Shown piece by piece: positions 1-16,200 of a stretch of 21,315 nt of DNA; the first letter of the stretch is position 1, and the number at the start of each line of letters is the position of its first letter. This stretch comes from a virus. The translations under genes and the position numbers were made by a program. The notes beneath the pieces were generated by a model that was not told the origin of the DNA, made no database searches, and saw only the letters and a list, made by a program, of their open reading frames with translations. The stretch is taken from the IMG/VR virus record IMGVR_UViG_3300000318_000013, positions 1 to 21,315 of that record. One strand, 5' to 3'.

Positions 1-1452
1 CTTGCGTCCAAGCCTATCCGGTATGTCATCGGCGACGAGCGGGACCGCTGGGCAGTATCGGCTGGCAAGGAAGGCGATCCGTGGAAACTTGCGATGGCCC
101 GGCAGATCACTTTCTATAACGCTAAGGCGGTGGAGGTTAGTACCCCAACCATCAAAGGTGCAAGTGCTATTGAGGATTCCTATTCTGAAGGTACAATGGA
201 GCGATGGTGCATACAATGTCCGCATTGCGGCGACTTTCACGATATTCGCTTTTCAGATATACGCTATGAGAAAGAGGAAAAAGTTGTTCACAACAAAAAG
301 CAGTATAAGGTAACAAAAATCTGTTATGCCTGTAAAAGTTGTGGCTGTATCTCGGACGAAAGGATAATGAAGAAGCAGCCTGCAAAATGGATTGCAGAAA
401 ATCCAGATGCCTACGAACGGGGCGTCCGTTCCTTCTGGCTCAACTCCTTTGTGAGTCCCTGGGCCTCGTGGGAATCGACAATCTTGGAATACCTCTATGC
501 TATTGGTAGTACAGCAAAAATGCAAGTCGTTTACAACACTCGTTTCGGAGAATTATGGGAGGATCGTGGCGACCTGGAGGACGAGGGTAGCCTGCTTGCC
601 CGACGTGAAGATTATCCGGAAGATGCAGATCTGCCGGAAGGAGTTATGGTGCTAACCTGTGGAGTTGATACGCAGGATGATCGCCTCGAATATGAGGTAG
701 TCGGGTTCGGACACTTCGGTGAAAACTGGGGTATCAAGAAAGGAATTATCATGGGCCGTCCTGACGAGGCAGAAGTTTGGAACCGGCTGGATGATGTACT
801 GGAACATATCTATCGGTTTGAAGATGGATCCGGACTGAGAGTGTCCATGACGTTCTGTGACGAGGGCGGACATTTCACGCAGGATGTGAGATTACAATGC
901 CGGGCACGGCTCGGCAAAAAGGTGTTCGCTATAAAAGGGCGCTCCGGTGATGGAGTGCCTTTTACTGCTCCACCGAAAAAACAAAAGATTGTTGTCAAAG
1001 GAAAGTTTGTCGGTACCTGCTGGCAGTATGCCATCGGTGTCGACTCCGGCAAGCAGATTATCATGGACAATCTGAGGGTGCAGAGCGAGGGCAGCAAATA
1101 CAGCCACTTCCCCAGGAGGGATGATTACGGGTCCTCTTATTTCACTGGTCTGCTCTCCGAGAGGCTTGTATATAAACCAGAAAGAAAGCAGCCCTGGCAG
1201 TGGGAGAAGATACCCGGCCATGAACGGAACGAACCGCTTGACTGTAGGAACTATGCACTGGCAGCGTTCAAGGCTTTATCTCCTGACATGGACGCAATCG
1301 ACTCGCGGCTCAAAGCTGCAAAAAGAGAAATACGCGGTAATGCCGCTGCAGCTTTGCTCGGTGCTGTGTCAGGCAAGGCTAACCCGGCACAAAAACCGGT
1401 ACGTAAAAAAACCGCAGGCAGCGCACTTAAAAAATATTACGATGAATGGTAG
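1..1452 (+). CDS. Phage terminase large subunit, GpA family (5' partial)
   Basis: ATP-driven DNA-packaging motor and nuclease that docks on the portal and cuts phage DNA. Reading frame 1 is open from the first base, so the gene begins upstream; 483 residues are present. GpA-type terminases have roughly 600-650, so the N-terminal part with Walker A is missing. Visible landmarks: IGDERDRW near residues 10-17 matches the Walker B region (usually DEVD), followed by EGDPWKLA and STPTIKGAS, both typical of the family. A zinc-ribbon-like set of cysteines follows (CIQCPHC, later CYACKSCGC). The RNase H-like nuclease domain starts with GVDTQDDRLEYEVVGFG near residue 221, with further acidic sites at FCDEGGH and DCRNYALAA. 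The ATG at 94 is internal, not the true start. The stop at 1450-1452 lies 8 bases before the next start. Family call is firm; lambda gpA is the reference. Confidence 0.95.
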   Translation, partial: LASKPIRYVIGDERDRWAVSAGKEGDPWKLAMARQITFYNAKAVEVSTPTIKGASAIEDSYSEGTMERWCIQCPHCGDFHDIRFSDIRYEKEEKVVHNKKQYKVTKICYACKSCGCISDERIMKKQPAKWIAENPDAYERGVRSFWLNSFVSPWASWESTILEYLYAIGSTAKMQVVYNTRFGELWEDRGDLEDEGSLLARREDYPEDADLPEGVMVLTCGVDTQDDRLEYEVVGFGHFGENWGIKKGIIMGRPDEAEVWNRLDDVLEHIYRFEDGSGLRVSMTFCDEGGHFTQDVRLQCRARLGKKVFAIKGRSGDGVPFTAPPKKQKIVVKGKFVGTCWQYAIGVDSGKQIIMDNLRVQSEGSKYSHFPRRDDYGSSYFTGLLSERLVYKPERKQPWQWEKIPGHERNEPLDCRNYALAAFKALSPDMDAIDSRLKAAKREIRGNAAAALLGAVSGKANPAQKPVRKKTAGSALKKYYDEW

Positions 1453-1460
1453 GTGATAGC

Positions 1461-1718
1461 ATGGCAGATAAGATTGAGATACAGGCCAGGCTTGATTTTT
1501 GGAAAAGCGCACTCCTGAAAAAGAGAGCCGCTTACCTTGCGCTGCTGGACGGCGGCGTGAAAAGCTACACCATTGATGACCGCGCCCTCACCCGTTTCGA
1601 CTTGGACACTTTATCCAAAGAGATAACGGAAGCAGAGCGAAAGGTTGACGAGCTCACAGCAATGCTGCAGGGCAGGAAACCGAGAAAAGCTTTCGGCATT
1701 ATACCGAGAGACTGGTAA
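1461..1718 (+). CDS. Small gpW-position head-tail joining protein (DUF6148-like)
   Basis: 85-residue protein between terminase and portal, the place of lambda gpW, which closes the portal channel after packaging. It begins with a helical stretch (ARLDFWKSALLKKRAAYLALL), then a short hairpin-like SYTIDDRALTRFDLDTL, then a second charged helix (EITEAERKVDELTAML). This helix-hairpin-helix layout and the 'SYTI..R.LTR.DL' wording resemble small phage proteins of the DUF6148 type. I chose ATG 1461 over the upstream GTG at 1446 because AGGTG sits about 7 bases before it. Function is inferred from position and shape; direct sequence similarity to gpW is not evident. Confidence 0.75.
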   Translation: MADKIEIQARLDFWKSALLKKRAAYLALLDGGVKSYTIDDRALTRFDLDTLSKEITEAERKVDELTAMLQGRKPRKAFGIIPRDW

Positions 1719-1824
1719 AGGGTATACGTCCGAAAGGACTTTTGCCCCGGGACACCTGACGGAGTTTTGCTCCTTTCGTCATCAGGTGTCCCGGTTATAT
1801 TACAAAGATTGGAGGCGAAAAACA
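1719..1824 (+). other. Intergenic leader with two hairpins before the portal gene
   Basis: This 106-base gap holds a small GAAA-capped hairpin (GTCC 1728-1731 with GGAC 1736-1739, then TTTT 1740-1743) and a strong one: arm 1747-1759 (CCGGGACACCTGA) pairs perfectly over 13 bp with 1782-1794 (TCAGGTGTCCCGG). An inner stem GGAG 1761-1764 / CTCC 1770-1773 closes a TTTTG loop. The large hairpin is not followed by a T-run, so it does not look like a standard intrinsic terminator. It lies 16 bases before the portal Shine-Dalgarno (GGAGG 1811-1815). RNA processing, mRNA protection or attenuation are all possible. The structure is directly visible; the role is not. Confidence 0.8.
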
Positions 1825-3420
1825 TTGAGTGAAAAAAACCACAGGCGTGGAGGTTCGCCGAATGTCAAAGGATACAGCGAGGCTGGCGCCAGCGAAGTGC
1901 GGCGGGCACTCAAGGGGTTCATAGCACGCAGCGGCTCGCCGACTGAGGATATAGATTGGAACAATTACACACTCCGGCAGCGCGGCAGAATGTTGTATAT
2001 GGCCTCGCCGATTGCGACGTCCGCTATCAACACGAACCGGACAAAGGTTGTCGGTACTGGGCTCACCCTGAAAAGCGCTATCGACCGTGTGCTGTTGGGG
2101 TTATCTCCGGAAGCAGCAAAGGTATGGCAGCGGTTGACGGAATCGGAATTTGCGATGTGGTCCGGTAAAAAAGGTAATTGTGACGCCACCGGCGTTAATA
2201 ACTTCGAAGGGCTACAGCAGCTGGCATTAAAGGCGTGGCTCATGAGCGGTGATGTGTTCCCGTTGTTTAAGCGATATAATCCATCACTGATAAATCCCTA
2301 CTCCCTGCGCATACACCTTATTGAAGCAGACCGGGTGAGCACGCCTTCAGACTATGGCAGCGCAGCTGTTCCTTCCCCACGGTTCACTGACGGAATAAAT
2401 CCGGACACAGAAAACAATGTTCATGATGGCGTGGAAGTCGATAGCAACGGCATGATTGTGGCTTATCACATCCGCAATACATATCCGAATCAGATTACAG
2501 CCGAAACAACAAAGTGGACTCGTGTCGAAGCATACGGAGCTAAGACCGGATTGCCGAATATGCTACACGTTATGGACAGTGAGCGCCCTGACCAGTACAG
2601 AGGTGTTACCTACCTCGCCCAGGTTATTGAGCCGTTGTTGCAACTGCGAAGATATACCGAGAGCGAGCTTATGGCAGCGCTGGTACAGAGTTTCTTCACC
2701 GCATGGATAACGACAAAGACAGATCCAACCGAGATACCCATGAACGAAACCGGGTCCGGTGATGTTGTCGGTGTACCTGGTGAACAGCCGAATGATGTAT
2801 CAGCGAGTCCGAATGAATATGAAATGGCGCCGGGCACGGTCAACCATCTTGAAGACGGAGAGGAAATAACATTCGGCAATCCGAACATTCCGACTTCTGG
2901 CTTTGATAGCTTTGTAAAAGCTATATGCCGCCTCGTAGGCGCAGCCTTGGAACTGCCTTACGATGTGCTTATCAAGGAATATAACGCCTCATATTCAGCA
3001 AGCCGCGCGGCACTGCTGGAAGCATGGGAAGCTTTTAAAATGCGCCGGAAATGGTTTGTTGATGATTTCTGTCAGCCTATCTATGAAGTATGGCTTGCAG
3101 AGGCAGTGGCCAGAGGCCGGATAAAGGCTCCTGGCTTTTTTGATGATCCGAGAATCCGGGCTGCATGGTGCAGCGCTCGTTGGATAGGACCTGTTCAGGG
3201 ACAGCTCGACCCGAGCAAAGAGGCCAAGGCAGCAATAATGACAGTAGATAGAGGATTCAAAACCCACGAACAAATCACCCGAGAGCTGGGTGGCGGTGAC
3301 TGGGAGGCTAACGTCGAGCAGCTGAAGCTCGAAAACGAAAAACTACTTGAAGCCGGTGGTGGCAAATACATGGCTACACTCGGCGAAAATGAATCGGAAG
3401 GAAGTGAATCTGGTGCCTAA
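1825..3420 (+). CDS. Portal protein, lambda gpB family
   Basis: Forms the dodecameric ring at one capsid vertex through which DNA enters and to which the tail connects. 531 residues, close to lambda gpB (533). Family-typical stretches: ARSGSPTEDIDWNNYTLRQR, then SPIATSAINTNRTKVVGTGL, LIEADRVSTP, HVMDSERPDQYRGV and LELPYDVLIKEYNASYSASR, the last being a hallmark of lambda-type portals. The start is TTG 1825: GGAGG at 1811-1815 precedes it by 9 bases and no in-frame ATG exists until MLYMASP, about 55 residues in. The frame is open further upstream to 1645, but that part crosses the hairpin leader and overlaps the preceding gene, so it is not counted. The 3' end overlaps the protease start (GTG 3413) by 8 bases. 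Confidence 0.93.
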   Translation: MSEKNHRRGGSPNVKGYSEAGASEVRRALKGFIARSGSPTEDIDWNNYTLRQRGRMLYMASPIATSAINTNRTKVVGTGLTLKSAIDRVLLGLSPEAAKVWQRLTESEFAMWSGKKGNCDATGVNNFEGLQQLALKAWLMSGDVFPLFKRYNPSLINPYSLRIHLIEADRVSTPSDYGSAAVPSPRFTDGINPDTENNVHDGVEVDSNGMIVAYHIRNTYPNQITAETTKWTRVEAYGAKTGLPNMLHVMDSERPDQYRGVTYLAQVIEPLLQLRRYTESELMAALVQSFFTAWITTKTDPTEIPMNETGSGDVVGVPGEQPNDVSASPNEYEMAPGTVNHLEDGEEITFGNPNIPTSGFDSFVKAICRLVGAALELPYDVLIKEYNASYSASRAALLEAWEAFKMRRKWFVDDFCQPIYEVWLAEAVARGRIKAPGFFDDPRIRAAWCSARWIGPVQGQLDPSKEAKAAIMTVDRGFKTHEQITRELGGGDWEANVEQLKLENEKLLEAGGGKYMATLGENESEGSESGA

Positions 3421-4651
3421 ATATTTCAAAAATCCTTTTGCAAGGAATACGGCCAATGTAAATATCCAGCGTGATTTTTATACTATGGCCACGGTGAACG
3501 GTGACGAGGCAGAGATTGTCATGTATGGCGAGATTGTGGAGCAGCAGCCGATAGACTGGTGGTCCGGTGAACCAATTGAGGGACAGTACATCATTGAAAG
3601 CGAGTTTCTCAAAGATCTAAAAGCCGTGGAGGGCGCGAAGACCATTAACATCCGCATGAACAGTCTCGGCGGTGATGCAGGCGTGTCCATTCTCATACAC
3701 AACCGGCTCAGAGAACTTGCTGCGAAAGGTACATCCTTAGTTTGCATCGTAGACGGTATAGCGATGTCAGGAGGATCGCTTATTATGTGTGCCTGCGATA
3801 CGGTGCGCGTCAATCCGTCCAGTCTTGTGATGATCCATAAGTGTTGGACGTTATTATTCGGCGGCTATAACGCAGATGAGTTGCGGCAGGTCGCTGATAA
3901 AAACGAAGCCTGGGATAAAGCCCAGATAGCCATATACACACGCAAGTGCAAACTCTCCGAAACGATTGTTACACATATGATGGCCGACACGACTTACATG
4001 ACGGGCAAAGAAGCGGTCGAAAAGGGCTTTGCAGACGAACTGCTGGATGATGCAGAGCCACTTGATATTGCGGCTAGCGCGGATGGCAGACACCTATTCG
4101 TCAGAGGACGAGAGTTACACCTTACGTCTGGTATGTTTTTACCGGACAACATCCCAACGGTTGATCCCGCGAAAGCGGATGAAACAAATATAACTCAGCC
4201 GGCTACAACCGGCGGTCAAGAAGGAGGAAAACTCATGGCAAAAAATCTTGAAGAGCTCCGCACAGAAAACCCGGAGCTTGCAGACACGCTGATGACTGAG
4301 GCCAAGGCCGCTGTGTCCACACAAGCCGGAACCGCAGTTGAGGCAGAACGTAAGCGTATCGAGGAGATTGATTCTATATCTGCCTTGTACGATGACGAAA
4401 CCGTAAAAGAGGCCAAGTATGGTAAAACAGCCTGCACAGCTCAGGAACTTGCTTTCCGTGCAGCTCAAACCGCTGCAAAGAAAGGCAAGGAAACCCTCGG
4501 CAATATGGATGAGGATTTCAAAGCCTCAGGTGCAGGTGATGTTAAGGCGGCTCCTGCTGCTGGTGAAGACGACAAACCGCTTACACCTGAACAGCGAATG
4601 GCGGCAGGACGTGCAGACGCCAAGAAAATTCAGAACAAGGAGGATAAGTGA
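3413..4651 (+). CDS. ClpP/S49-type prohead protease with C-terminal scaffold region (lambda C-like)
   Basis: Serine protease that processes head proteins during capsid maturation. 412 residues. The N-terminal 230 or so form the ClpP-like fold: RMNSLGGDAG, then GIAMSGGS with the presumed nucleophile Ser119, then MIHK with His142; MTGKEAVEKGFADEL closes the domain. From about residue 275 the sequence becomes acidic, charged and Ala/Gln-rich, as in assembly scaffolds, and this part can also be made alone (see nested CDS at 4235). Start choice: GTG 3413 has GGAAGGAAG at 3396-3404, about 8 bases upstream, and overlaps the portal stop. ATG 3389 in the same frame, giving 8 more residues, is the alternative. 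The catalytic Asp could not be assigned by eye. Confidence 0.9.
   Translation: MPKYFKNPFARNTANVNIQRDFYTMATVNGDEAEIVMYGEIVEQQPIDWWSGEPIEGQYIIESEFLKDLKAVEGAKTINIRMNSLGGDAGVSILIHNRLRELAAKGTSLVCIVDGIAMSGGSLIMCACDTVRVNPSSLVMIHKCWTLLFGGYNADELRQVADKNEAWDKAQIAIYTRKCKLSETIVTHMMADTTYMTGKEAVEKGFADELLDDAEPLDIAASADGRHLFVRGRELHLTSGMFLPDNIPTVDPAKADETNITQPATTGGQEGGKLMAKNLEELRTENPELADTLMTEAKAAVSTQAGTAVEAERKRIEEIDSISALYDDETVKEAKYGKTACTAQELAFRAAQTAAKKGKETLGNMDEDFKASGAGDVKAAPAAGEDDKPLTPEQRMAAGRADAKKIQNKEDK
4221..4227 (+). promoter_or_regulatory. Internal Shine-Dalgarno for the nested scaffold
   Basis: AAGGAGG inside the protease coding region, 7 bases before ATG 4235. It encodes part of the GGQEGGK linker between the protease and scaffold parts, so the linker doubles as a ribosome-binding site. 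Confidence 0.85.
4235..4651 (+). CDS. Nested in-frame scaffold protein (lambda Nu3-like)
   Basis: 138-residue product starting at Met275 of the protease, in the same frame. A perfect AAGGAGG at 4221-4227 lies 7 bases before ATG 4235, among the strongest ribosome sites in the window and without purpose unless translation starts here. The product opens MAKNLEELRTENPEL, is rich in Ala, Glu and Lys, predicted helical, and ends with a polar PLTPEQRMAAGRADAKK tail. In lambda, scaffold Nu3 is likewise the separately initiated C-terminal part of protease gene C. The scaffold would template capsid assembly and then be removed. Evidence for the start is direct; the Nu3 role is inferred from gene order and composition. 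Confidence 0.82.
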   Translation: MAKNLEELRTENPELADTLMTEAKAAVSTQAGTAVEAERKRIEEIDSISALYDDETVKEAKYGKTACTAQELAFRAAQTAAKKGKETLGNMDEDFKASGAGDVKAAPAAGEDDKPLTPEQRMAAGRADAKKIQNKEDK

Positions 4652-4653
4652 AA

Positions 4654-5052
4654 ATGTCACATTTGAACAGAAAAGTCGGTGAAGTGGAGTATGACAAGCT
4701 GATTGCTGGCGTAACGCCTGCGATTCATGTCAACTCCGGCGTCATCAGAAAGCTTGCTGCAGCCGCGGCCCTTGTACGCGGTACTGTGCTTGCAAAGTCC
4801 TCCGGCTCTGCCGGGGACGGAAAACTTGTTATCCTCGGCACAACTGCCGTAGAGAACGAGACCCTCACCCCCGATTGCATCCTTTGTGATGATATGGATG
4901 TCGGGACAGCTGCTGATGTAAATGCAGCGGTATTCACCGCAGGCTGCTTCAATGCAGACGCACTTACCGTTAAAACCGCATACACCATGATCGAGGCAGA
5001 TAAGGACAAGCTGCGTGAGCGCGGCATCTATCTCGGCACGGTGTTGGCGTAA
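4654..5052 (+). CDS. Head decoration protein, lambda gpD family
   Basis: Small trimeric protein that clamps the outside of the expanded capsid. 132 residues (lambda gpD has 110). Family features: VTPAIHVNSGVIRKLAAAAALVRGTVL (here split at VNSG / VIRK for reading), then PDCILCDDMDVG, VFTAGCFNADAL and a C-terminal LRERGIYL. ATG 4654 was taken as start because AAGGAGG at 4637-4643 is 10 bases away. A GTG at 4648 in the same frame would be only 4 bases from that site, although it overlaps the protease stop as GTGA. It lies directly before the major capsid gene, as D lies before E in lambda. Confidence 0.9.
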   Translation: MSHLNRKVGEVEYDKLIAGVTPAIHVNSGVIRKLAAAAALVRGTVLAKSSGSAGDGKLVILGTTAVENETLTPDCILCDDMDVGTAADVNAAVFTAGCFNADALTVKTAYTMIEADKDKLRERGIYLGTVLA

Positions 5053-5072
5053 CTTAAGGAGGTATATGAAAA

Positions 5073-6146
5073 ATGCCACAAAACATTGATTTATTCGACA
5101 GCTACTACATGGCGGGTATGGTGCAGTCAATTGTTCCGCAGATGACCTTTTTCCGCGACCGTTACTTTCCTACCGGAGCCGCCGACATCTTTGCCGCCGA
5201 CAAGGTATTGGTTGAGTATCAGGATGGAGACCGCAGGCTCGCTCCGTTTGTAGTGCCCCGTGCCGGTGATATCCCTATCGCTCGCGGCGGATATGAAGTG
5301 CACGAATTCGAGACGCCCAGCATCCTGCCTTCTCGTATGCTGACACTGGATGATTTGCAGAGGCGCGGATTTGGCGAGGCTCTGTTCTCTGGTTCAACCC
5401 AGGCAGAACGTGCAAGGGCTTTGCACCTTCGCGACCTGTCCGACCTCGACAGGCGTATCACACGACGTGAGGAATGGATGGCAGTCCAGACTATGATCAA
5501 CAACGGCTGCACCATGACAGCCTACATCGACAACGCAACCGTTGGCAAGACATATGATGTGTTCTTCTACGACACATCCGGAAGCAACCCTGCTATCTAC
5601 ACCGCAGGTGACCAGTGGGACGACACCAATGGCGACTTCTGGGGTGACATAGAGGCTATGTGCGGATCATTAGCCGACAGAGGATTGGCTGCTGCTGATC
5701 TCATACTCGGATCCACTGCAGCAAATTTTGTCTTGTCGGATGAAACCATCGCCAAGAAGCTTGACAACAGGAGAATGGAATTCGGGCAGATTGCACCGAA
5801 AATCACAACTCCCGGCGTTTCATGGCTGGGAAGGTTGAACTTCTCCGGCTTCGAGTTGGATATATTCTCTGTCCGCGAGACCTATGTGGACACTGCCGGC
5901 ACAACTCAGAAATTCTTCCCTGCAAAGAGTGCAATGGTTACTGCTCCTAATTGCGGACACATGATGTACGCTCAGATCAGCCAGATTGAACCGGACGAAC
6001 AGTTCCACACTTTCGCCATGAAGCGTGTCCCGAAATTCGTGGTTGACCGTGATAAGGACACCCGTAAGCTGAGACTTGGTTCCCGACCGCTCGCTGCGCC
6101 CCTGCAGAAATCCCCATGGATTTATGCGGCTGACGTAGTATTATAA
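5073..6146 (+). CDS. Major capsid protein, lambda gpE family
   Basis: Main shell protein of the icosahedral head (HK97-like fold in this family). 357 residues, near the lambda gpE length (341). Recognisable stretches include IVPQMTFFRDRYFPTG, VLVEYQDGDRRLAPFVVPR, the segment FETPSILPSRMLTLDDLQRR, and a C-terminal HTFAMKRVPKFVVDRDKDTR. TAAGGAGG at 5055-5062 lies 10 bases before ATG 5073. A nearer ATG at 5066 is out of frame and stops after seven codons. The strong ribosome site fits a highly expressed shell protein. Confidence 0.94.
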   Translation: MPQNIDLFDSYYMAGMVQSIVPQMTFFRDRYFPTGAADIFAADKVLVEYQDGDRRLAPFVVPRAGDIPIARGGYEVHEFETPSILPSRMLTLDDLQRRGFGEALFSGSTQAERARALHLRDLSDLDRRITRREEWMAVQTMINNGCTMTAYIDNATVGKTYDVFFYDTSGSNPAIYTAGDQWDDTNGDFWGDIEAMCGSLADRGLAAADLILGSTAANFVLSDETIAKKLDNRRMEFGQIAPKITTPGVSWLGRLNFSGFELDIFSVRETYVDTAGTTQKFFPAKSAMVTAPNCGHMMYAQISQIEPDEQFHTFAMKRVPKFVVDRDKDTRKLRLGSRPLAAPLQKSPWIYAADVVL

Positions 6147-6173
6147 GGTCACTAACCGGAAAGGAGTAAATTC

Positions 6174-6680
6174 ATGAAGCTTATCAAGATAGTGAACGGC
6201 ACCTATGGCCACAAGGCTCCTGGAGCGAGAAGTGTCTATCCGAAGTCTGCCGGCGACCCTCCATTTGAGGTAGATGACGCCAAAGCCGACCGCCTTGTTA
6301 CTCTCGGAGTCGCTGCTTATGTCACCACCGATGAAAACCCCGGCAAGGCTGTTTCAACTCCCGATAGTGGAGAGAACAAAACCGAGACGGGTAAAGCCGC
6401 ACCGGAAGGAAATGAGGGCGGGAAACCGTCCTACAATTCCAAGATGAGAGCCGATGAACTGAAAGAACTTTTGAAAAAGTATGGGCTAAGCTACAGGGTC
6501 GGCATGTCGAAAGACGTAATGGTAGCTGCTCTGGACGAGTATTTCAGCAAGAAGGATGAGGACGCCGGTGACGATTCTAACGAGGAGGTTACCGATGACA
6601 AGAAGTCCAGTGATACCGAGGATGAGATCGATGATGGCGAGACTCCTCCCGCTCTTTCCGCTGAGGATCCCGTTATATGA
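6174..6680 (+). CDS. Head accessory protein in the lambda FI position, with SAP/HeH-like motif
   Basis: 168 residues in three parts. Residues 1-55 are a compact N-terminal region (MKLIKIVNGTYGHK; FEVDDAKADRLVTLGVAAYV), a common start in Firmicutes phage proteins placed right after the capsid gene. Residues 56-85 are a Gly/Glu/Lys linker. Residues about 90-125 (MRADELKELLKKYGLSYRV, then SKDVMVAALDEYF) look like a SAP or HeH/LEM helix-extension-helix nucleic-acid-binding motif. The C-terminal 40 or so are strongly acidic. Lambda gpFI, also after E, helps terminase dock on the prohead; a similar aid to packaging is inferred from position. AAGGAG 6161-6166 sits 7 bases before the start. Confidence 0.75.
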   Translation: MKLIKIVNGTYGHKAPGARSVYPKSAGDPPFEVDDAKADRLVTLGVAAYVTTDENPGKAVSTPDSGENKTETGKAAPEGNEGGKPSYNSKMRADELKELLKKYGLSYRVGMSKDVMVAALDEYFSKKDEDAGDDSNEEVTDDKKSSDTEDEIDDGETPPALSAEDPVI

Positions 6681-7051
6681 GCGGCTTCAAGGATATGGTC
6701 GAGGCAGACAACAAGAATGTGTTTCTGAACGCAGGTGAGTTTGCAGAGTTGAACAAGGTTATCTATGACGGCGTGACATATGATGGAGAAAACCATAACG
6801 GCATACCAATCACATTGACAAGCCTGAAAGAGAAGGACCGGAGGCAACTCGTATCTGACCATGCACAAGGATTATTCCTTGTTTCCGGCATTTTGCATTG
6901 TGCCGCCTCCGACCTTGGCGGCGTTGTACCGGAAAAAGGAATGAAGATAAAAATAAGCGACGGCCCAGCTTTTTTTCGAAACTTTACCGTAGCAGCCTCA
7001 TCCTGTTCCGGTGGCATGATCCGTTTGGAATTGGAGGCGATTGACGAATGA
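6677..7051 (+). CDS. Head-tail connector candidate in the lambda FII position
   Basis: 124 residues, start overlapping the previous stop as ATGA. The sequence is mostly beta-type: VFLNAGEFAELNKVIYDG, then IPITLTSLKEKDRRQLVSD, then MKIKISDGPAFFRNFTVAAS and GGMIRLELEAIDE. Lambda gpFII (117 residues) is the connector that makes heads competent for tails, and gene order E-FI-FII-Z is kept here. I cannot claim sequence-level recognition; the call rests on size, fold impression and place. Confidence 0.65.
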   Translation: MSGFKDMVEADNKNVFLNAGEFAELNKVIYDGVTYDGENHNGIPITLTSLKEKDRRQLVSDHAQGLFLVSGILHCAASDLGGVVPEKGMKIKISDGPAFFRNFTVAASSCSGGMIRLELEAIDE

Positions 7052-7626
7052 GTGGAGCTATTTACTTCGACTTTGACGACAAAAAACTCGACCGTGCTCA
7101 GAAGCTGCTCGCAGGAATTCCGGACGGTATATACCGGGCTGTGGGCAGCGCTATCAAGAGAGCCGCACAGCACGGACTCACCGTAGGCATGCGGATTGTG
7201 TCCGAGGAATACGCTATCGGACAGGACCAGCTCAAAAGCAACACAAGGCATATTAACACCATTGTAAAAGATGGTAAAGGCTCTTTTGAGGTTACTTTCG
7301 GATATCGTGGTAATGTTATCCCGCTGATCCGGTTTGACACCCAGGTCGGCAAGGATGGCAATGTATCAGCAAGGGTACTCCGAAGCAATGCAAAGAAAGC
7401 TCTTGAACATGCCTTTATTGCAAATGTCGGAGGCCATCGCGGAATCTTTGAAAGGGAATCCGAATCGAGGCTGCCTATTAAAGAGATTTATGGTCCTTCA
7501 GCAGTCCAGGCGTTCTATGCCAGAGAAGAAACCGTCGACAAGATGGACGAGGAAATCCGAAAGACCTACGAAGACCGTATCGAACACGAGATCACCAGAG
7601 TAATGAATGGATGGGGTGGTAGATAG
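7048..7626 (+). CDS. Minor tail / joining protein, lambda gpZ family
   Basis: 192 residues, about the length of lambda gpZ. The family core is visible: ALEHAFIANVGGHRGIFERE followed by SRLPIKEIYGPSAVQAF, matching the 'F.A....H.G.F.R...RLPI...GPS' pattern of prophage tail-Z proteins. In lambda, Z acts late in tail assembly at the end that joins the head and affects DNA positioning in the tail. It is less expected beside a contractile tail. The start overlaps the previous stop (ATGA) and has GGAGG at 7033-7037. Confidence 0.85.
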   Translation: MSGAIYFDFDDKKLDRAQKLLAGIPDGIYRAVGSAIKRAAQHGLTVGMRIVSEEYAIGQDQLKSNTRHINTIVKDGKGSFEVTFGYRGNVIPLIRFDTQVGKDGNVSARVLRSNAKKALEHAFIANVGGHRGIFERESESRLPIKEIYGPSAVQAFYAREETVDKMDEEIRKTYEDRIEHEITRVMNGWGGR

Positions 7627-9932: not shown

Positions 9933-10451
9933 ATGCCAACCTTTGACGAAAGTGTAATAAATTTCGCGGTATATGAAAATGGTTCAGAGTATGCTGGTAT
10001 CGCAACGGCAACACTTCCTGATTTGACCTCGCTCGTGCAGTCAATCTCAGGTGCCGGCATAGCCGGTAATGTGGAGGCTGTCCTTCCCGGACACTATGAA
10101 GCCATGACATTGACGCTCAACTTCCGGACGCTCACGACACACACAATAAGGCTTTCCGAACCTCGCAGACATACCATTGACCTGCGTATCGCTCAGCAGA
10201 ATGAGGACACCGTTGCAGGCGCTGTCAACATGCAGGGGGTAAAGCACATCTTTGTGGTTGTGCCGAAGGTAGACGCCGGTGGATCCGTCGCTCCTGCCTC
10301 TCCATCAAATGGCTCCGGCCAGTATGCAGTTCGCTACTGGGCGACCTACATTGACGGCGTGAAGGTCAGGGAGATAGACCAGCTCAATTTCATATGCTAT
10401 ATCAACGGAGTAGACTACCTTGCAGACGTGAGGCGTGTACTCGGTAAATAA
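9933..10451 (+). CDS. Major tail tube protein, P2 FII family
   Basis: Forms the inner tube through which DNA passes. 172 residues, same size as P2 FII (172). Typical features: the N-terminal FDESVINFAVYENGSEYAG, the segment LPDLTSLVQSISGAGIAGN, the central HYEAMTLTLNFRTLT, and a C-terminal ATYIDGVKVREIDQLNFICY. AAGGAGG 9918-9924 precedes the ATG by 8 bases. The short loop GGSVAPASPSNGSG (about residues 116-129) is low-complexity and likely a flexible surface loop. Confidence 0.93.
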   Translation: MPTFDESVINFAVYENGSEYAGIATATLPDLTSLVQSISGAGIAGNVEAVLPGHYEAMTLTLNFRTLTTHTIRLSEPRRHTIDLRIAQQNEDTVAGAVNMQGVKHIFVVVPKVDAGGSVAPASPSNGSGQYAVRYWATYIDGVKVREIDQLNFICYINGVDYLADVRRVLGK

Positions 10452-10486: not shown

Positions 10487-10519
10487 GAATCTGTGTATAA
10501 AATAAAAGGAGATTATTTC

Positions 10520-10897
10520 ATGAGCGATGCTACAAAAAGCAATATTGCCATCGACCCCGAGGAATTATCTGTAGCAAACAAAGAGGCTGCTAATAGTGGG
10601 GATTCATTCACCTATAAATTCCGCAAGACGTATGAATATGACGGCAAAAACTTTAACGAAGTAACTTTCAACTGGGATAGGCTCACAGGTAACGATGCCC
10701 TTGCAATCGAAAACGAATTACAGCAGCTCGGTAAGGCGATCATCGTTCCCGCTTTCTCAGGTGAGTACCTAGTACGTATGTGTGCCAGAGCTTGCACTGA
10801 GGGTATTGGAGCTGACTTTTTCGGCAAAATGCCAATCGCTGACTATAACCGTATAAGGAGCGCGGCACGCTCTTTTTTGCTGAAATCGGAGTCGTAA
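10520..10897 (+). CDS. Tail assembly chaperone, short form (P2 gpE / Mu gp41 type)
   Basis: 125-residue chaperone that keeps the tape measure protein soluble during tail assembly; it is not part of the virion in related phages. Features: YKFRKTYEYDGKNFNEVTFN, then LTGNDALAIENELQQLGKAI, then an Arg/Cys/Ala helix and IADYNRIRSAARSFLL, matching the TAC family that includes P2 gpE and Mu gp41. ATG 10520 follows AAAAGGAG (about 10504-10511); the frame is open back to 10457 but that part covers the hairpin. Close to its end is the slippery sequence T TTT TTG (10873-10879), so a fraction of ribosomes should enter the -1 frame and make a longer protein. Confidence 0.9.
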   Translation: MSDATKSNIAIDPEELSVANKEAANSGDSFTYKFRKTYEYDGKNFNEVTFNWDRLTGNDALAIENELQQLGKAIIVPAFSGEYLVRMCARACTEGIGADFFGKMPIADYNRIRSAARSFLLKSES

Positions 10898-10922
10898 TCG
10901 GTGATAGAGGCAAATGGCTCCG
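10873..10922 (+). promoter_or_regulatory. Programmed -1 ribosomal frameshift site
   Basis: The heptamer T TTT TTG at 10873-10879 is in the correct phase of the chaperone frame (TCT TTT TTG) and is the same slippery sequence used in phage P2 gene E. A 7-base spacer (10880-10886) leads to a possible stem of 7 bp with one G-U pair: CGGAGTC 10887-10893 with GGCTCCG 10916-10922, loop of 22. The spacing is that of known stimulatory stem-loops. The -1 frame is open from 10849 to 11064. The stem is my own folding by eye. Confidence 0.88.
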
Positions 10923-11064
10923 GAAACAAAGCCTTATAATGGCACAGACGAATAATACGCCTGTGCCATTTTGGTTATCTCTCCCCCTCTCGGAATTTAC
11001 GAAATGGATAGGAACCAGCAACCAGATCGTAGCCGAGCAGGAGAAACGCCGTAAGAAAAAATGA
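10879..11064 (+). CDS. -1-frame extension of the tail assembly chaperone (E' / T type)
   Basis: After slipping, translation adds 61 residues to residue 120 of the chaperone, giving a fusion of 181 (P2 gpE+E' has 142). The extension begins AEIGVVIGDRGKWLRKQ and carries the motif VPFWLSLPLSEFTKWIG, of the kind seen in second-frame TAC domains that contact the tape measure protein, and ends in a basic EKRRKK. There is an in-frame ATG at 10939 but no ribosome-binding site near it, and it lies in a 10-bp hairpin, so independent translation is unlikely. The tape measure gene starts 17 bases after the stop. Confidence 0.85.
   Translation, partial: AEIGVVIGDRGKWLRKQSLIMAQTNNTPVPFWLSLPLSEFTKWIGTSNQIVAEQEKRRKKK
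10938..10970 (+). repeat. Perfect 10-bp inverted repeat in the -1-frame extension
   Basis: AATGGCACAG 10938-10947 pairs perfectly with CTGTGCCATT 10961-10970 around a 13-base A/T-rich loop. The left arm covers the ATG at 10939. It starts about 59 bases after the slippery site, too far to act as the classic stimulator. Confidence 0.7.
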
Positions 11065-11081: not shown

Positions 11082-14000
11082 ATGGCAAGTAGAAAAGAAT
11101 ATGAACTGCTATTTGCTTTGAACGCCCAGCTTGGCGGCAGTTATAATAGCACCTTCAAATCGGCACAAAATTCTCTCATTCAAATGCAGAAAGAGATTGA
11201 CGCACTCGGTAAACTACAGTCGAATATAACTGCATACGAGAAGCAGCAAGGCGCGATAGAGGCTACCCGTAAAAAGCTTGAAGTCCTACGGCAGCAGTAT
11301 GAAAATGTTCAAAAAGAAATATCCGAAACCGGTACATATTCCTCCGACCTTGAGAACAAGCTCCTGCAAAAGCAGCAGCAGATTGACAAGACTAATATTT
11401 CTATTGATGCTCAGACAGATAAACTCAACCGTATGGGGAATGCTCTCCATGTGGCAGGAATAAATACTGAAGCACTCGGAACTGAGGAATCAAAGCTCGG
11501 TAGTCAGATGGATGTGCTGAAACAGAAACAGGAGGCAGCAGCGGAAAAGGCAAATAGTTTTGGATCCTCCGCTTCCATTGCTTTTGATGCTGTCGGACAG
11601 GCGATTGTGTCAGCCGGTATAGTCAGGACACTTGAAGAAATATATAACAAATTCATGGCCTGCGCCGACGCCTCTGTCGAATTCGAATCCGGATTAACCG
11701 GTGTCGAAAAGACTACGGACATGAATGATCGACAGCTGGCTGCTCTCGGTGAGGATATCAAGGAGCTTTCAACCGATATCCCTGTAACGACCTCAGAACT
11801 GAATGAAATCGCAGAGGCTGCGGGACAACTGGGGATCCAACAGGACAGTCTGCTTGACTTCACCGAGGTTATGGCAAACCTCGGTGTTGCAACAAATCTA
11901 TCCTCAATGGATGCCTCTACGGCACTTGCGAAATTCGCTAATGTTGTAAGGATGTCCGCAGACGATTATGGACGCCTCGGCTCGGTCATTGTTGACCTTG
12001 GAAATAAAGGAGCATCCACGGAATCCGAAATTGTGGAAATGGCCACAAGGCTTGCCTCGGCTGGTTCGCTTATCGGATTATCAGAGCCGGATATTATGGC
12101 TGTGGCTTCTGCCCTCTCGTCACTTGGTATTGAAGCCGAGGCAGGCGGCAGTGCCATATCCAAATTAATGAAGGAATTTGAGGTCATGGTCCAGACCGGA
12201 GCACCGGCGCTTGAAAAATTTGCGAAGGTAGCAGGCATGAGCGCGGATGATTTCTCTATTGCATGGGGGAAAAATCCCGTTGAAGCTCTCGGAGCGTTTA
12301 TTGATGGACTCGGGCGCATTGACGCGACCGGAGGATCAGCCGTCGCAACATTGGAAGGCCTCGGCGTTACGGAAATAAGGATGTCGAATGCCGTCCTGTC
12401 CCTCGCATCTTCTGGTGGAATTCTCAATGATTCTCTCGCTGTTGCAAATAAGGCATGGAAAGAAAATACTGCCCTGACCATAGAGGCTGAAAAACGGTAT
12501 GCAACAACCGAGAGCCAATTCAAGATGATGCAGGATGGATACAACAACCTGAAGATAGCAATAGGTGATAATTATACCCCTACTCTGAAGGAATTGTACG
12601 AAGCAGGCAATCAGGTACTCGGAGGTATGACCGAATTTGTGCAGCAGCATCCAACTCTTGTAAAAGCCGTTACGGCATTTGTAGGTGTTCTCGGAATTGC
12701 TATTGCTGGTCTCGCGGCGTATGCGGCAGCCGCAAAAATAGCCACTTTGTTTACAGCCGCATTTACAACCGCTGCCGGAGTATCACTGCTTGGACCAATA
12801 CTTCTTGTTGTTGCTGGTGTTGCGGCGCTTACCGCTGGAATTGTTGCACTTTCGGGAGCTATGAAAGGCCAGTTAGACGAAACATGGGAACTGACCGCGG
12901 CGTCTCGTGATCAGTACAAAGAGCTGCAGGAACTGAATGACGAATACAAAAACGCCAAAGAAGTATACGGAGAAACCTCTTATGAAGCGCAGCAGCTTAA
13001 ATGGCAGATTGATGACCTGACAAAAGAATATGAGGGCAGCAAGCAAACGCTGGAGGAATATACGACTGCCCATGAAAACCTCATGAAAAACTATCAGGAA
13101 ATGTCAGGATCTCATGAGGAGTCGGCGGCAAAGATAGATACCGAACAAAAGAGCGTTCTGGCTTTGATTCAAAAGCTGGATGAACTGATTTCCACGACGG
13201 ACGGAGCTACCAAAAACCAGCAGGCTATCCTGGCTATCATTGACGCCCTGAATAAGTCGGTGCCGGAACTCGCTTTATCATTCGATGATGTGGCTAATGC
13301 TTCCGATGGGTTCATTGATTCTCTATACGATATAGCGAAAGCCCAGGCGGCACAGCTCGCACTTGAAGATAAGTGGGGCGAATACATTGACCGTGTTGGT
13401 CAGCAGGACGCGCTCAAACAGGCTAAAGAAGCAGCCGAGGCAAATGCAAAAATCGCCCAGGAAGAATATACCGTCGCCAAAAAAGCATGGGAGGACAAAG
13501 TTGACCTCTATAAATACAGCAGCGGCTTTGACGGTGGCTGGGGAATGATTATCGGCACGAAAGAAGAAGGCGCAGCCATGGACGCAGCCAAAAAGCAGAT
13601 GGACGAATACAATACTGCTCTAGCTGAAACTTCTAAAGCCTATAACGAAAACGCTGCCGATATTGAAGATCTGGAAGGCGCTTTCAAAGACTTCCAGGCA
13701 GCACAGGACGAGGCCGCTGTCAGCGGAGAGAATATCAGTGTTGTAATAAAAGACATCACTGACAAGGTTGCTGACCTGGCGGTTAAATATAATGAGGCGT
13801 ATACTGCTGCGCTTGACAGTATAGAAGGACAATATTCTTTATGGGATAAAGCCGCTAAGGTTGTTGCAACAAACGCAGGTGCGATGAACGATGCACTTGA
13901 GAGTCAGATATCTTATTGGAAGAAATACAACGATAACTTAGCTGGATTGACCGACAGGAGCGCCGATATTGAAGGACTTTCTGAAATGCTCTCCAGTTTT

Positions 14001-14687
14001 GCAGACGGCAGCAAGGAAAGTGTAAACGCTGTCGCCGGCATGGCGAAAGCCAGCGATTCCGACCTCAAGGAAATGGTGAAGAATTGGCAGACTCTCCGGA
14101 CAGAACAGGAAACCGTTGCAGATAAACTGGCTAACCTCGAAACTGACTTCAAGGATACGATGGACACTCTGCAGAAAGAACTCGAAACCACCGTTGGCAA
14201 AATGAGGCTTGACGATAAAGCGGCTCAGAGCGGAAAGAGTACCATTCAGGGGTTCATCGACGGCGCCGAGAATATGATTCCGGAAGTACAGGCAGCATAC
14301 AAGAAGATTGCTGACGCTGCGATCGCTGCTATTGACGCCCAACTCCAGATCCACAGTCCTTCAAAGGTGTTATGGGAAAAAGGTAAATACTCCATGAGCG
14401 GATTTATCGGTGGTGTGGAAGCTATGGAGCCGGATGTCGCAGAGGCGATGAGGAGTGCTGCAAATACAGGTGCAGATGCATTTACTGCCAATGCGATAAA
14501 TGCAGAGGGTGGCGGCAGTGGCGTGAGCATATCGCTTGACTATTCCCCGCAGTATGATTTAGGCGATGGTAACAGCACAAGCGATATTGAAGCCATACTG
14601 CGCACTCACGACAATAACCTCCGTGACATACTCCTGGATTTGTTGGAGAGCGTGGGGATTGACGCGAAAAGGAGGGCATATGTATGA
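11082..14687 (+). CDS. Tail tape measure protein
   Basis: 1201 residues; sets tail length and is ejected ahead of the DNA. Residues 1-150 are Gln/Glu/Lys-rich coiled coil (MQKEIDALGKLQSNI, KLEVLRQQYENVQKE). Residues about 200-400 match the tape-measure core: TTSELNEIAEAAGQLGI, then LGNKGASTESEIVEMA, and LSEPDIMAVASALSSLGIEA. Two hydrophobic segments near 526-556 and 566-594 are probably membrane-active during DNA entry. Then comes a second long coiled-coil region. The C-terminus has two related blocks, GFIDGAENMIPEV (about 1056) and GFIGGVEAMEPDV (about 1106), around the family motif IHSPSKVLWEKG. AAGGAGG 11069-11075 lies 6 bases before the start. No peptidase or lysozyme domain is evident. 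Confidence 0.95.
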   Translation: MASRKEYELLFALNAQLGGSYNSTFKSAQNSLIQMQKEIDALGKLQSNITAYEKQQGAIEATRKKLEVLRQQYENVQKEISETGTYSSDLENKLLQKQQQIDKTNISIDAQTDKLNRMGNALHVAGINTEALGTEESKLGSQMDVLKQKQEAAAEKANSFGSSASIAFDAVGQAIVSAGIVRTLEEIYNKFMACADASVEFESGLTGVEKTTDMNDRQLAALGEDIKELSTDIPVTTSELNEIAEAAGQLGIQQDSLLDFTEVMANLGVATNLSSMDASTALAKFANVVRMSADDYGRLGSVIVDLGNKGASTESEIVEMATRLASAGSLIGLSEPDIMAVASALSSLGIEAEAGGSAISKLMKEFEVMVQTGAPALEKFAKVAGMSADDFSIAWGKNPVEALGAFIDGLGRIDATGGSAVATLEGLGVTEIRMSNAVLSLASSGGILNDSLAVANKAWKENTALTIEAEKRYATTESQFKMMQDGYNNLKIAIGDNYTPTLKELYEAGNQVLGGMTEFVQQHPTLVKAVTAFVGVLGIAIAGLAAYAAAAKIATLFTAAFTTAAGVSLLGPILLVVAGVAALTAGIVALSGAMKGQLDETWELTAASRDQYKELQELNDEYKNAKEVYGETSYEAQQLKWQIDDLTKEYEGSKQTLEEYTTAHENLMKNYQEMSGSHEESAAKIDTEQKSVLALIQKLDELISTTDGATKNQQAILAIIDALNKSVPELALSFDDVANASDGFIDSLYDIAKAQAAQLALEDKWGEYIDRVGQQDALKQAKEAAEANAKIAQEEYTVAKKAWEDKVDLYKYSSGFDGGWGMIIGTKEEGAAMDAAKKQMDEYNTALAETSKAYNENAADIEDLEGAFKDFQAAQDEAAVSGENISVVIKDITDKVADLAVKYNEAYTAALDSIEGQYSLWDKAAKVVATNAGAMNDALESQISYWKKYNDNLAGLTDRSADIEGLSEMLSSFADGSKESVNAVAGMAKASDSDLKEMVKNWQTLRTEQETVADKLANLETDFKDTMDTLQKELETTVGKMRLDDKAAQSGKSTIQGFIDGAENMIPEVQAAYKKIADAAIAAIDAQLQIHSPSKVLWEKGKYSMSGFIGGVEAMEPDVAEAMRSAANTGADAFTANAINAEGGGSGVSISLDYSPQYDLGDGNSTSDIEAILRTHDNNLRDILLDLLESVGIDAKRRAYV

Positions 14688-14896
14688 GTAAAACCTATAC
14701 AACGGTTCAGGGAGATAAGTGGGATAGCATAGCATTTACCCAACTCGGGGACATGGCTTACACTGACAAGCTTATTAACCTGAACCGTCAATATATCAAC
14801 TATTACATATTTCCTGCAGGAATTACGCTTGTGCTACCGGATGTCACGTCTGCACCTACTAACACACTTCCTCCCTGGAAGCAGGTGAGCGGATGA
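14684..14896 (+). CDS. LysM-like tail protein, P2 gpX family
   Basis: 70 residues with one LysM-type fold: YTTVQGDKWDSIAFTQLGD, then YTDKLINLNRQYINYYIFPAG, ending ITLVLPDV. P2 gpX, also next to the hub gene, is thought to sit at the hub and may touch peptidoglycan. The start overlaps the tape measure stop (ATGA); GGAGGG 14671-14676 lies 7 bases upstream. The nearer ATG at 14680 is out of frame and stops at once. Confidence 0.88.
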   Translation: MSKTYTTVQGDKWDSIAFTQLGDMAYTDKLINLNRQYINYYIFPAGITLVLPDVTSAPTNTLPPWKQVSG

Positions 14897-16200
14897 GCGA
14901 TAAGGATCTGGCAAGGAGAACGTCAGCCGAGGTATTCTTTGGAGGCGTTGATATAACAAATTCAATCCAGCCATATCTTTTATCATTATCCTATACGGAC
15001 AATGAGGAGGATGCAGCTGACGACCTTCAAATATCTCTACAGGACCGAGAAAATATCTGGCTTGAAAAATGGCTGGATGTTGCTATTCAAGCGGCGGCTG
15101 CCTCCCCATCTGTTACTGGAACACCATATAAGGTCACGGCACAGAGCGGTCTGAACGTCCGAAGCGGCCCTGGAACAAATCATGGCAAGGTAGGCTCGCT
15201 GGCATATGGCACTCAGGTAAACGTGTTATCTGTATCAAACGGATGGGCACGCATTAAGTACAACAGCAAGGACGCCTATATCAGTGAGAAGTATGTCGCC
15301 AAGGGAAGCGGGACGGACGTCGCTGCAACCAGCGCAACGACCGTCAAGGGCCTCCGCATCCAGTCAGTAATTGTCCGTGAGAATTGGAACAGTGACGGAA
15401 AAGACAAGGTGCTGGACTGCGGGCAGTTTGAACTAGACAATGTGGATGCCTCCGGACCTCCTGCCACCATTACAATTAAGGGTACGTCGCTGCCATATGT
15501 CGCACAGATCCGCCAGGTAAAAAAGAATCATGCGTGGGAATCGATATCTTTGTCTGGTATAGCGAAGCAGTTAGCAGCCAACAATGGCATGGCATGTCTT
15601 TATGAATCTGCTTATGACCCGAAGTATACCCGTGTGGAGCAGGTCACCATGAGCGACATTGCCTTTTTATCTATCTTGTGCCATGACGGTGGCATTTCGC
15701 TGAAGATCACGAATAACATCATTGTGCTTTTCGACCAGGCAGCGTATGAAGCTAAGGCTCCTGTGCTGACAATCGAACGCGGTGATGGCACTTACAGCAA
15801 ATATAAGCTCCAGACCGGAAAAGCGGACACTCAATATGCGAGCTGCCGGGTACGTTATACTGACCCATCCACCGGTAAGACGATTAAGGGCATTGCTTAT
15901 ACCGAGGACTATAAAGCTGATGACGAGGACAACCAACAACTCGAAATATGGGCAAAGGTAAATAGTATCGGCGAGGCAAAAACCTTGGCATACAAACGCC
16001 TGCGGCTCCAAAACAAATATGAGAAATCTGCGACCTTTACCATTCCTGGGAATCCCGACATTATGGCCGGGGTTACGGTTATGCTTGAAGGTTGGGGCGC
16101 ATGGAGCGGAAAGTACATCGTCAGTCAGTCGAAACATTCTATCGGTGACTCAGGCTATACGACACAAATCCAACTGAGGAAAGTATTGGAGGGGTACTGA
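14893..16200 (+). CDS. Baseplate hub protein, P2 gpD family, with inserted SH3b domain
   Basis: 435 residues. The hub (P2 gpD, Mu gp44, T4 gp27 type) forms the ring that links tube and spike. The N-terminal beta part (AEVFFGGVDITNSIQPYLLS, then DNEEDAADDLQISLQD) and the long C-terminal part (ESISLSGIAKQLAANNGM; DIAFLSILCHDGGISLKI; PDIMAGVTVMLEGWGAW) are typical. Between them, residues about 79-136 (bases 15127-15300) are a bacterial SH3 domain: YKVTAQSGLNVRSGPGTNHG, then VGSLAYGTQVNVLSVSNGWA, then KDAYISEKYV. The LNVRSGPGT and GWA wording is diagnostic of SH3_3. Ala/Ser/Thr/Gly linkers flank it on both sides. Such domains bind peptidoglycan. The start overlaps the gpX-like stop (ATGA). Confidence 0.9.
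   Translation: MSDKDLARRTSAEVFFGGVDITNSIQPYLLSLSYTDNEEDAADDLQISLQDRENIWLEKWLDVAIQAAAASPSVTGTPYKVTAQSGLNVRSGPGTNHGKVGSLAYGTQVNVLSVSNGWARIKYNSKDAYISEKYVAKGSGTDVAATSATTVKGLRIQSVIVRENWNSDGKDKVLDCGQFELDNVDASGPPATITIKGTSLPYVAQIRQVKKNHAWESISLSGIAKQLAANNGMACLYESAYDPKYTRVEQVTMSDIAFLSILCHDGGISLKITNNIIVLFDQAAYEAKAPVLTIERGDGTYSKYKLQTGKADTQYASCRVRYTDPSTGKTIKGIAYTEDYKADDEDNQQLEIWAKVNSIGEAKTLAYKRLRLQNKYEKSATFTIPGNPDIMAGVTVMLEGWGAWSGKYIVSQSKHSIGDSGYTTQIQLRKVLEGY
15127..15300 (+). other. SH3b domain-coding insert within the hub gene
   Basis: Codes for hub residues about 79-136. The flanking linkers (AIQAAAASPSVTGTP before, AKGSGTDVAATSATT after) mark it as an independent domain looped out of the hub barrel. 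The remainder of the protein can be aligned mentally to gpD without it. Confidence 0.85.

Follow-up and report, generated by a model that had tools for sequence, protein, structure and literature searches.

A predicted programmed -1 frameshift signal in the tail assembly chaperone gene of a contractile-tailed gut prophage and its relatives

One tail assembly chaperone gene of a gut prophage is very likely to yield two products by programmed -1 ribosomal frameshifting, a reading to which a probability of about 0.94 was assigned from the sequence. Most ribosomes would stop at 10895 and release a chaperone of 125 aa. A minority would slip back by one base, with the tRNA-Phe and tRNA-Leu on UUU UUG re-pairing as UUU UUU; the next codon would then be GCU, and reading on to 11062 would give a fusion of 181 aa. 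A hairpin starting 7 nt downstream probably favors this slippage, and in this portion of the family an AAGGAG motif 12 nt upstream probably does so too. By analogy with gpG/gpGT of phage lambda, the abundant short form would attach to the tape measure protein, and recruitment of the tube protein would fall to the few fused copies. Slippage and its efficiency, the action of the hairpin and of the Shine-Dalgarno (SD)-like motif on it, and the assembly roles are what we infer here; the signal itself, judged by its conservation, is almost certainly functional.

The window, i.e., the whole stretch of 21,315 nt that was analyzed (IMGVR_UViG_3300000318_000013), comprises the head and tail block of a gut-bacterium prophage with a contractile tail. 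Lambda-type head genes were found at 94-7626 (gpA terminase, ClpP-like protease, capsid gpE and gpZ), and their junction with a P2-type contractile tail makes the block a mosaic. Past the head genes, the order is P2-type sheath and tube, chaperone, tape measure and baseplate genes. The chaperone gene is flanked directly by two tail genes: on its 5' side by that of the P2 FII-type tail tube (9933-10451; PF04985, E 1.2e-37), and on its 3' side by that of the tape measure (11082-14687), which matched PF10145 (2.2e-26) as well as many tape measure PHROGs. Both flanking genes, like the chaperone gene, its -1 extension and the parts of its frameshift signal, are on the plus strand. Farther downstream, the protein in the gpD position (tail hub/late control, 14893-16200) contains an inserted bacterial SH3_3 domain (PF08239, E 1.1e-15) at residues 85-135 (about 15145-15297).

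The chaperone gene, whose ribosome-binding site, AAAAGGAG, was read in the sequence at 10504-10511, starts with the ATG at 10520 and ends at 10897. Its 0-frame product of 125 aa would have the role of P2 gpE or lambda gpG. It matched PHROG 3140 (tail assembly chaperone) with an E of 1.3e-25 and PF10109, the P2 E/Mu 41/14 family, with an E of 5.6e-4 (20.3 bits, below the gathering cut-off of 25). The same model was matched by 38 of the 46 relatives at E up to 0.1, the best value being 1.1e-6, and a direct hhalign comparison with the P2 E set gave an E of 0.0066 and a probability of 6. The AlphaFold model of the chaperone (pLDDT 92.9) resembles predicted tail assembly or tape measure chaperones and has a weak likeness to Mu FS-gp41; the PDB fold search with this model gave no match. 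Sequence and predicted fold thus place the protein, marginally, as a distant member of the E/41/14 family.

The slippery heptamer T_TTT_TTG is located at 10873-10879, near the end of the chaperone gene, where the 0-frame codons are TCT TTT TTG and the phase is T|TTT|TTG, as the first-pass annotation had stated. Relatives were collected by protein-pattern scans of viral contigs and one genome-contig scan, together with phage records and the relatives' genomes. This gave 47 distinct versions, window included, and the heptamer was never used to find any of them. The Faecalibacterium phages FP_Taranis and Pioen and metagenome-assembled genomes (MAGs) of Oscillospiraceae and other Bacillota are among the named relatives. 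All 47 versions carry six Ts at the same place together with an open -1 frame (46 as TTTTTTR and one as TTTTTTT), and a TTT TTR pair is expected from codon usage in about 7% per sequence. After thinning to below 70% identity, TTT TTR was kept in 28 of 29 rows (codon null, p 7e-31). On the tree, the Ts remained unchanged through at least 14 switches of the heptamer's last base. By its conservation, the heptamer is more than chance. Homologues that had lost the heptamer and kept both frames intact were sought and none was found, since T6 is present in 47/47. Two P2 E homologues without T6G, those of Escherichia phage 520873 (L074) and Mannheimia phage 535AP1 (L075), have other in-phase candidate heptamers instead (A_AAT_TTT; G_GGA_AAG), and in both the -1 frame is open and has a GpE-like extension.

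A homopolymer of six Ts in every version would also fit slippage of the RNA polymerase, with the fusion read from mixed mRNAs and the ribosome keeping its frame. Six Ts are a short run for transcriptional slippage. Such slippage at single-base runs is known (reviewed in PMC5009743), but the run keeps a length of six (seven in one version), its phase fits X_XXY_YYZ, and a structure, which transcriptional slippage does not need, sits at the distance expected for a ribosomal event. This explanation was considered highly improbable, and ribosomal frameshifting is the preferred reading.

The -1 frame is open from the GCT at 10879 to the stop codon at 11062-11064 (coding part 10879-11061), that is, until just before the ATG of the tape measure gene at 11082. 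The predicted extension has 61 residues plus the stop (10879-11064) and would consist of a flexible linker followed by a three-helix unit. Together with the ORF at 10520-10897, this bears out the two products of 125 and 181 residues proposed in the first-pass annotation, as well as its claim about the reach of the open frame. In the structure model of the extension (pLDDT 87), the block means of residues 11-60 are above 90 except in the tail, and no viral match below an E of 0.001 was obtained with it. PHROG 30074 was matched in 45 of the 46 members; this family is annotated as "unknown function" and handled as a separate protein.

Selection on the extension was analyzed in 16 pairs of relatives. 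The dN/dS of the -1 frame was 0.115 over the 14 codons that separate the ATG site at 10939 from the 0-frame stop, and 0.147 past the ATG site, compared with 0.132 for the chaperone, and the two other frames over the extension gave values above 1.7 and contain stops. It is thus in the -1 frame only that the extension evolves as a protein. No possible start precedes the conserved GDGGxW in 38 of the 47 versions, and ATG, GTG and TTG are all absent from the first 31 codons in eight. Because versions without a start exist and the -1 frame is under selection upstream of the ATG site, translation must enter from the chaperone frame.

These results bear directly on the possibility that the extension has a small gene of its own, with ATG 10939 as its start or with ribosomes reinitiating past the 0-frame stop. 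In FP_Taranis, Glimmer predicted a gene of this kind, an ATG occupies the 10939 codon in 25 of the 47 versions, and a few versions have an SD-like stretch before it. However, the site is a Leu codon in 22/47, in 15 of them one other than ATG, GTG or TTG, and no SD-like stretch lies ahead of ATG 10939 in the window. Moreover, the strong purifying selection of the -1 frame 5' of the ATG and the eight versions without any start argue against it, and the invariance of the heptamer would stay unexplained. A separate gene is thus very unlikely. Regarding annotation, it had been anticipated that gene calling would miss the extension or report an orphan of 42 residues; FP_Taranis has the orphan call and in Pioen the stretch is unannotated, but the ORF from ATG 10939 in the window is of 41 residues (42 codons with the stop).

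Downstream of the heptamer, a stem of nine to ten bp including G-U begins after 7 nt. Its 5' arm, UCGGAGUCGU, covers 10886-10895, the last base being the first base of the 0-frame stop, and pairs with the 3' arm, AUGGCUCCGG, at 10914-10923. The stem-loop described in the first-pass annotation does fold there and at that distance, but the 7 bp starting at 10887 are only the core of the full stem. At the window's own stem, the fold reached -12.9 kcal/mol with a z of -2.2, and 4 of 200 shuffles were as good. RNAalifold on the full alignment (all rows) gave no consensus structure, and for this reason counts of the named structure, a positional fold scan and a tree-aware null, in which the columns evolved independently along the tree, were used. 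The helix 10886-10895/10914-10923 had the top pairing share among 11,662 candidate 10-bp helices in the surrounding alignment, with 82% of the cells paired in the stem register vs. 31-49% when it was slid. Across relatives, the mean MFE of 50-nt windows was -17.5 at the stem position and -5 to -13 elsewhere; the fold z was -1.7 there vs. -0.8 or weaker elsewhere, with no other peak.

The covariation in relatives that the earlier description called for was detected at the outer pair 10886-10923, whose value was reached in 0/400 tree-aware simulations. For the whole helix it was modest (34/1000 simulations, p about 0.03). In the W-L-R stretch, the third base of the Leu codon is one of the paired bases; this codon is CTC in 24 of 32 cases against a background of 25%, and in 16 of 19 after thinning (p 1e-7). 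The hairpin is therefore supported, at the sequence level, as a conserved element. The stem is broken in some lineages, e.g., in Taranis, and four versions without the common stem (L022, L025, L028 and L060) form different small hairpins about as far from the heptamer. A second hairpin at 10938-10970, a perfect 10-bp one around ATG 10939, was rejected as part of the signal since it is not conserved: across the 47 versions, a mean of 5 of its 10 pairs is kept, and all ten in two versions.

Additionally, an internal SD-like element, AAGGAG, was located at 10855-10860, ending 12 nt 5' of the heptamer. It had been missed in the first-pass annotation, whose description of the signal was to this extent incomplete. 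SD-like 4-mers pile up at positions -18 to -16 (21/47 versions at -16), compared with an average of 0.7 per position farther 5'. The Ser codon at this site is AGY in 23 of 29 cases vs. a background of 39%, and in 17 of 20 when the set was thinned at 70% identity (p 4e-5). About half of the family, Taranis included, lacks the motif. Folding is on average weaker where GGAG is present (-15.3 vs. -19.1 kcal/mol, p 0.06), which is suggestive of a trade-off between the motif and the fold energy.

The hairpin and the SD-like motif could instead be by-products of coding constraint that do not stimulate an otherwise real frameshift. Overlapping codons do hold most of the stem positions, the helix reaches a p of only about 0.03 under the tree-aware null, and the SD-like motif overlaps a conserved Arg-Ser pair. 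By contrast, the synonymous codons are biased toward pairing (CTC) and toward GGAG (AGY), also after thinning, the fold peak is limited to the stem position, and in the four versions without the common stem, different small hairpins occupy its place. A by-product origin is unlikely on this evidence, and a programmed -1 frameshift with a downstream stem-loop is supported, from sequence comparison, as the best reading of the locus.

The device is already known from lambda G/GT and P2 E/E', and the window appears to have the same device at the same place with a chaperone that is probably related. The lambda system has another slippery site and other protein sequences, and its tail is non-contractile. 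As in lambda, the gene precedes the tape measure gene and a -1 frameshift would give two products (PMC5009743). Lambda gpG and gpGT bind the tape measure and tube proteins, and frameshifted chaperones are conserved among tailed phages (PMC5009743). The same device is found in P2-like phages, with an efficiency two to three times higher (PMC5009743; PMC3931495). The window resembles P2 E/E+E' in its T_TTT_TTG in the same phase, in the position between FII-type tube and tape measure genes, in the small C-terminal -1 extension, and, marginally, in a chaperone with a distant likeness to PF10109.

The sequence of the extension, however, is not recognizably related to P2 E'. No model match to the P2 GpE' family was obtained among the 46 extension members at E up to 0.1, and hhalign against the P2 GpE profile gave an E of 8e-4 over 20 columns only, with a probability of 24. 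The extension belongs to PHROG 30074 and is either different from P2 E' or far diverged. No hairpin at the corresponding place was shared among the 12 P2-like phages folded. The label "P2-type" given to the frameshift hence holds for the gene position, the heptamer, the tail module and, marginally, the chaperone (PF10109), but not for the extension, which has no P2 GpE match.

In dnaX-type signals, the heptamer is preceded by the SD at about 10-14 nt and followed by the hairpin at about 5-9 nt, and the spacings in the window, 12 nt and 7 nt, are both within these allowed distances. The E. coli dnaX signal likewise combines an upstream SD-like element, a heptamer and a downstream hairpin (PMC5600365). 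It differs in belonging to an unrelated gene and in its A-rich heptamer, that of the window family being U-rich, and the SD-like element is present only in part of the window family. A more specific model, in which a dnaX-like three-part signal sets the chaperone ratio in a large lineage of contractile-tailed phages of gut Clostridia, the SD being traded against hairpin strength and the hairpin replaced in place, is tentative and rather doubtful.

Among the papers searched, no earlier report of a frameshift signal for these gut phages was retrieved. The window chaperone and its extension fall into PHROG 3140 and PHROG 30074, and the orphan family PHROG 30074 would thereby gain an explanation as the -1 extension of a tail chaperone. 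In Faecalibacterium phages and related phages of the gut, the long form of the chaperone would accordingly be missed by standard annotation. Moreover, the heptamer, the hairpin and the SD-like motif are all visible in a large family, and its 47 natural variants of one signal may be useful as a means for measuring the weights of these three elements separately.
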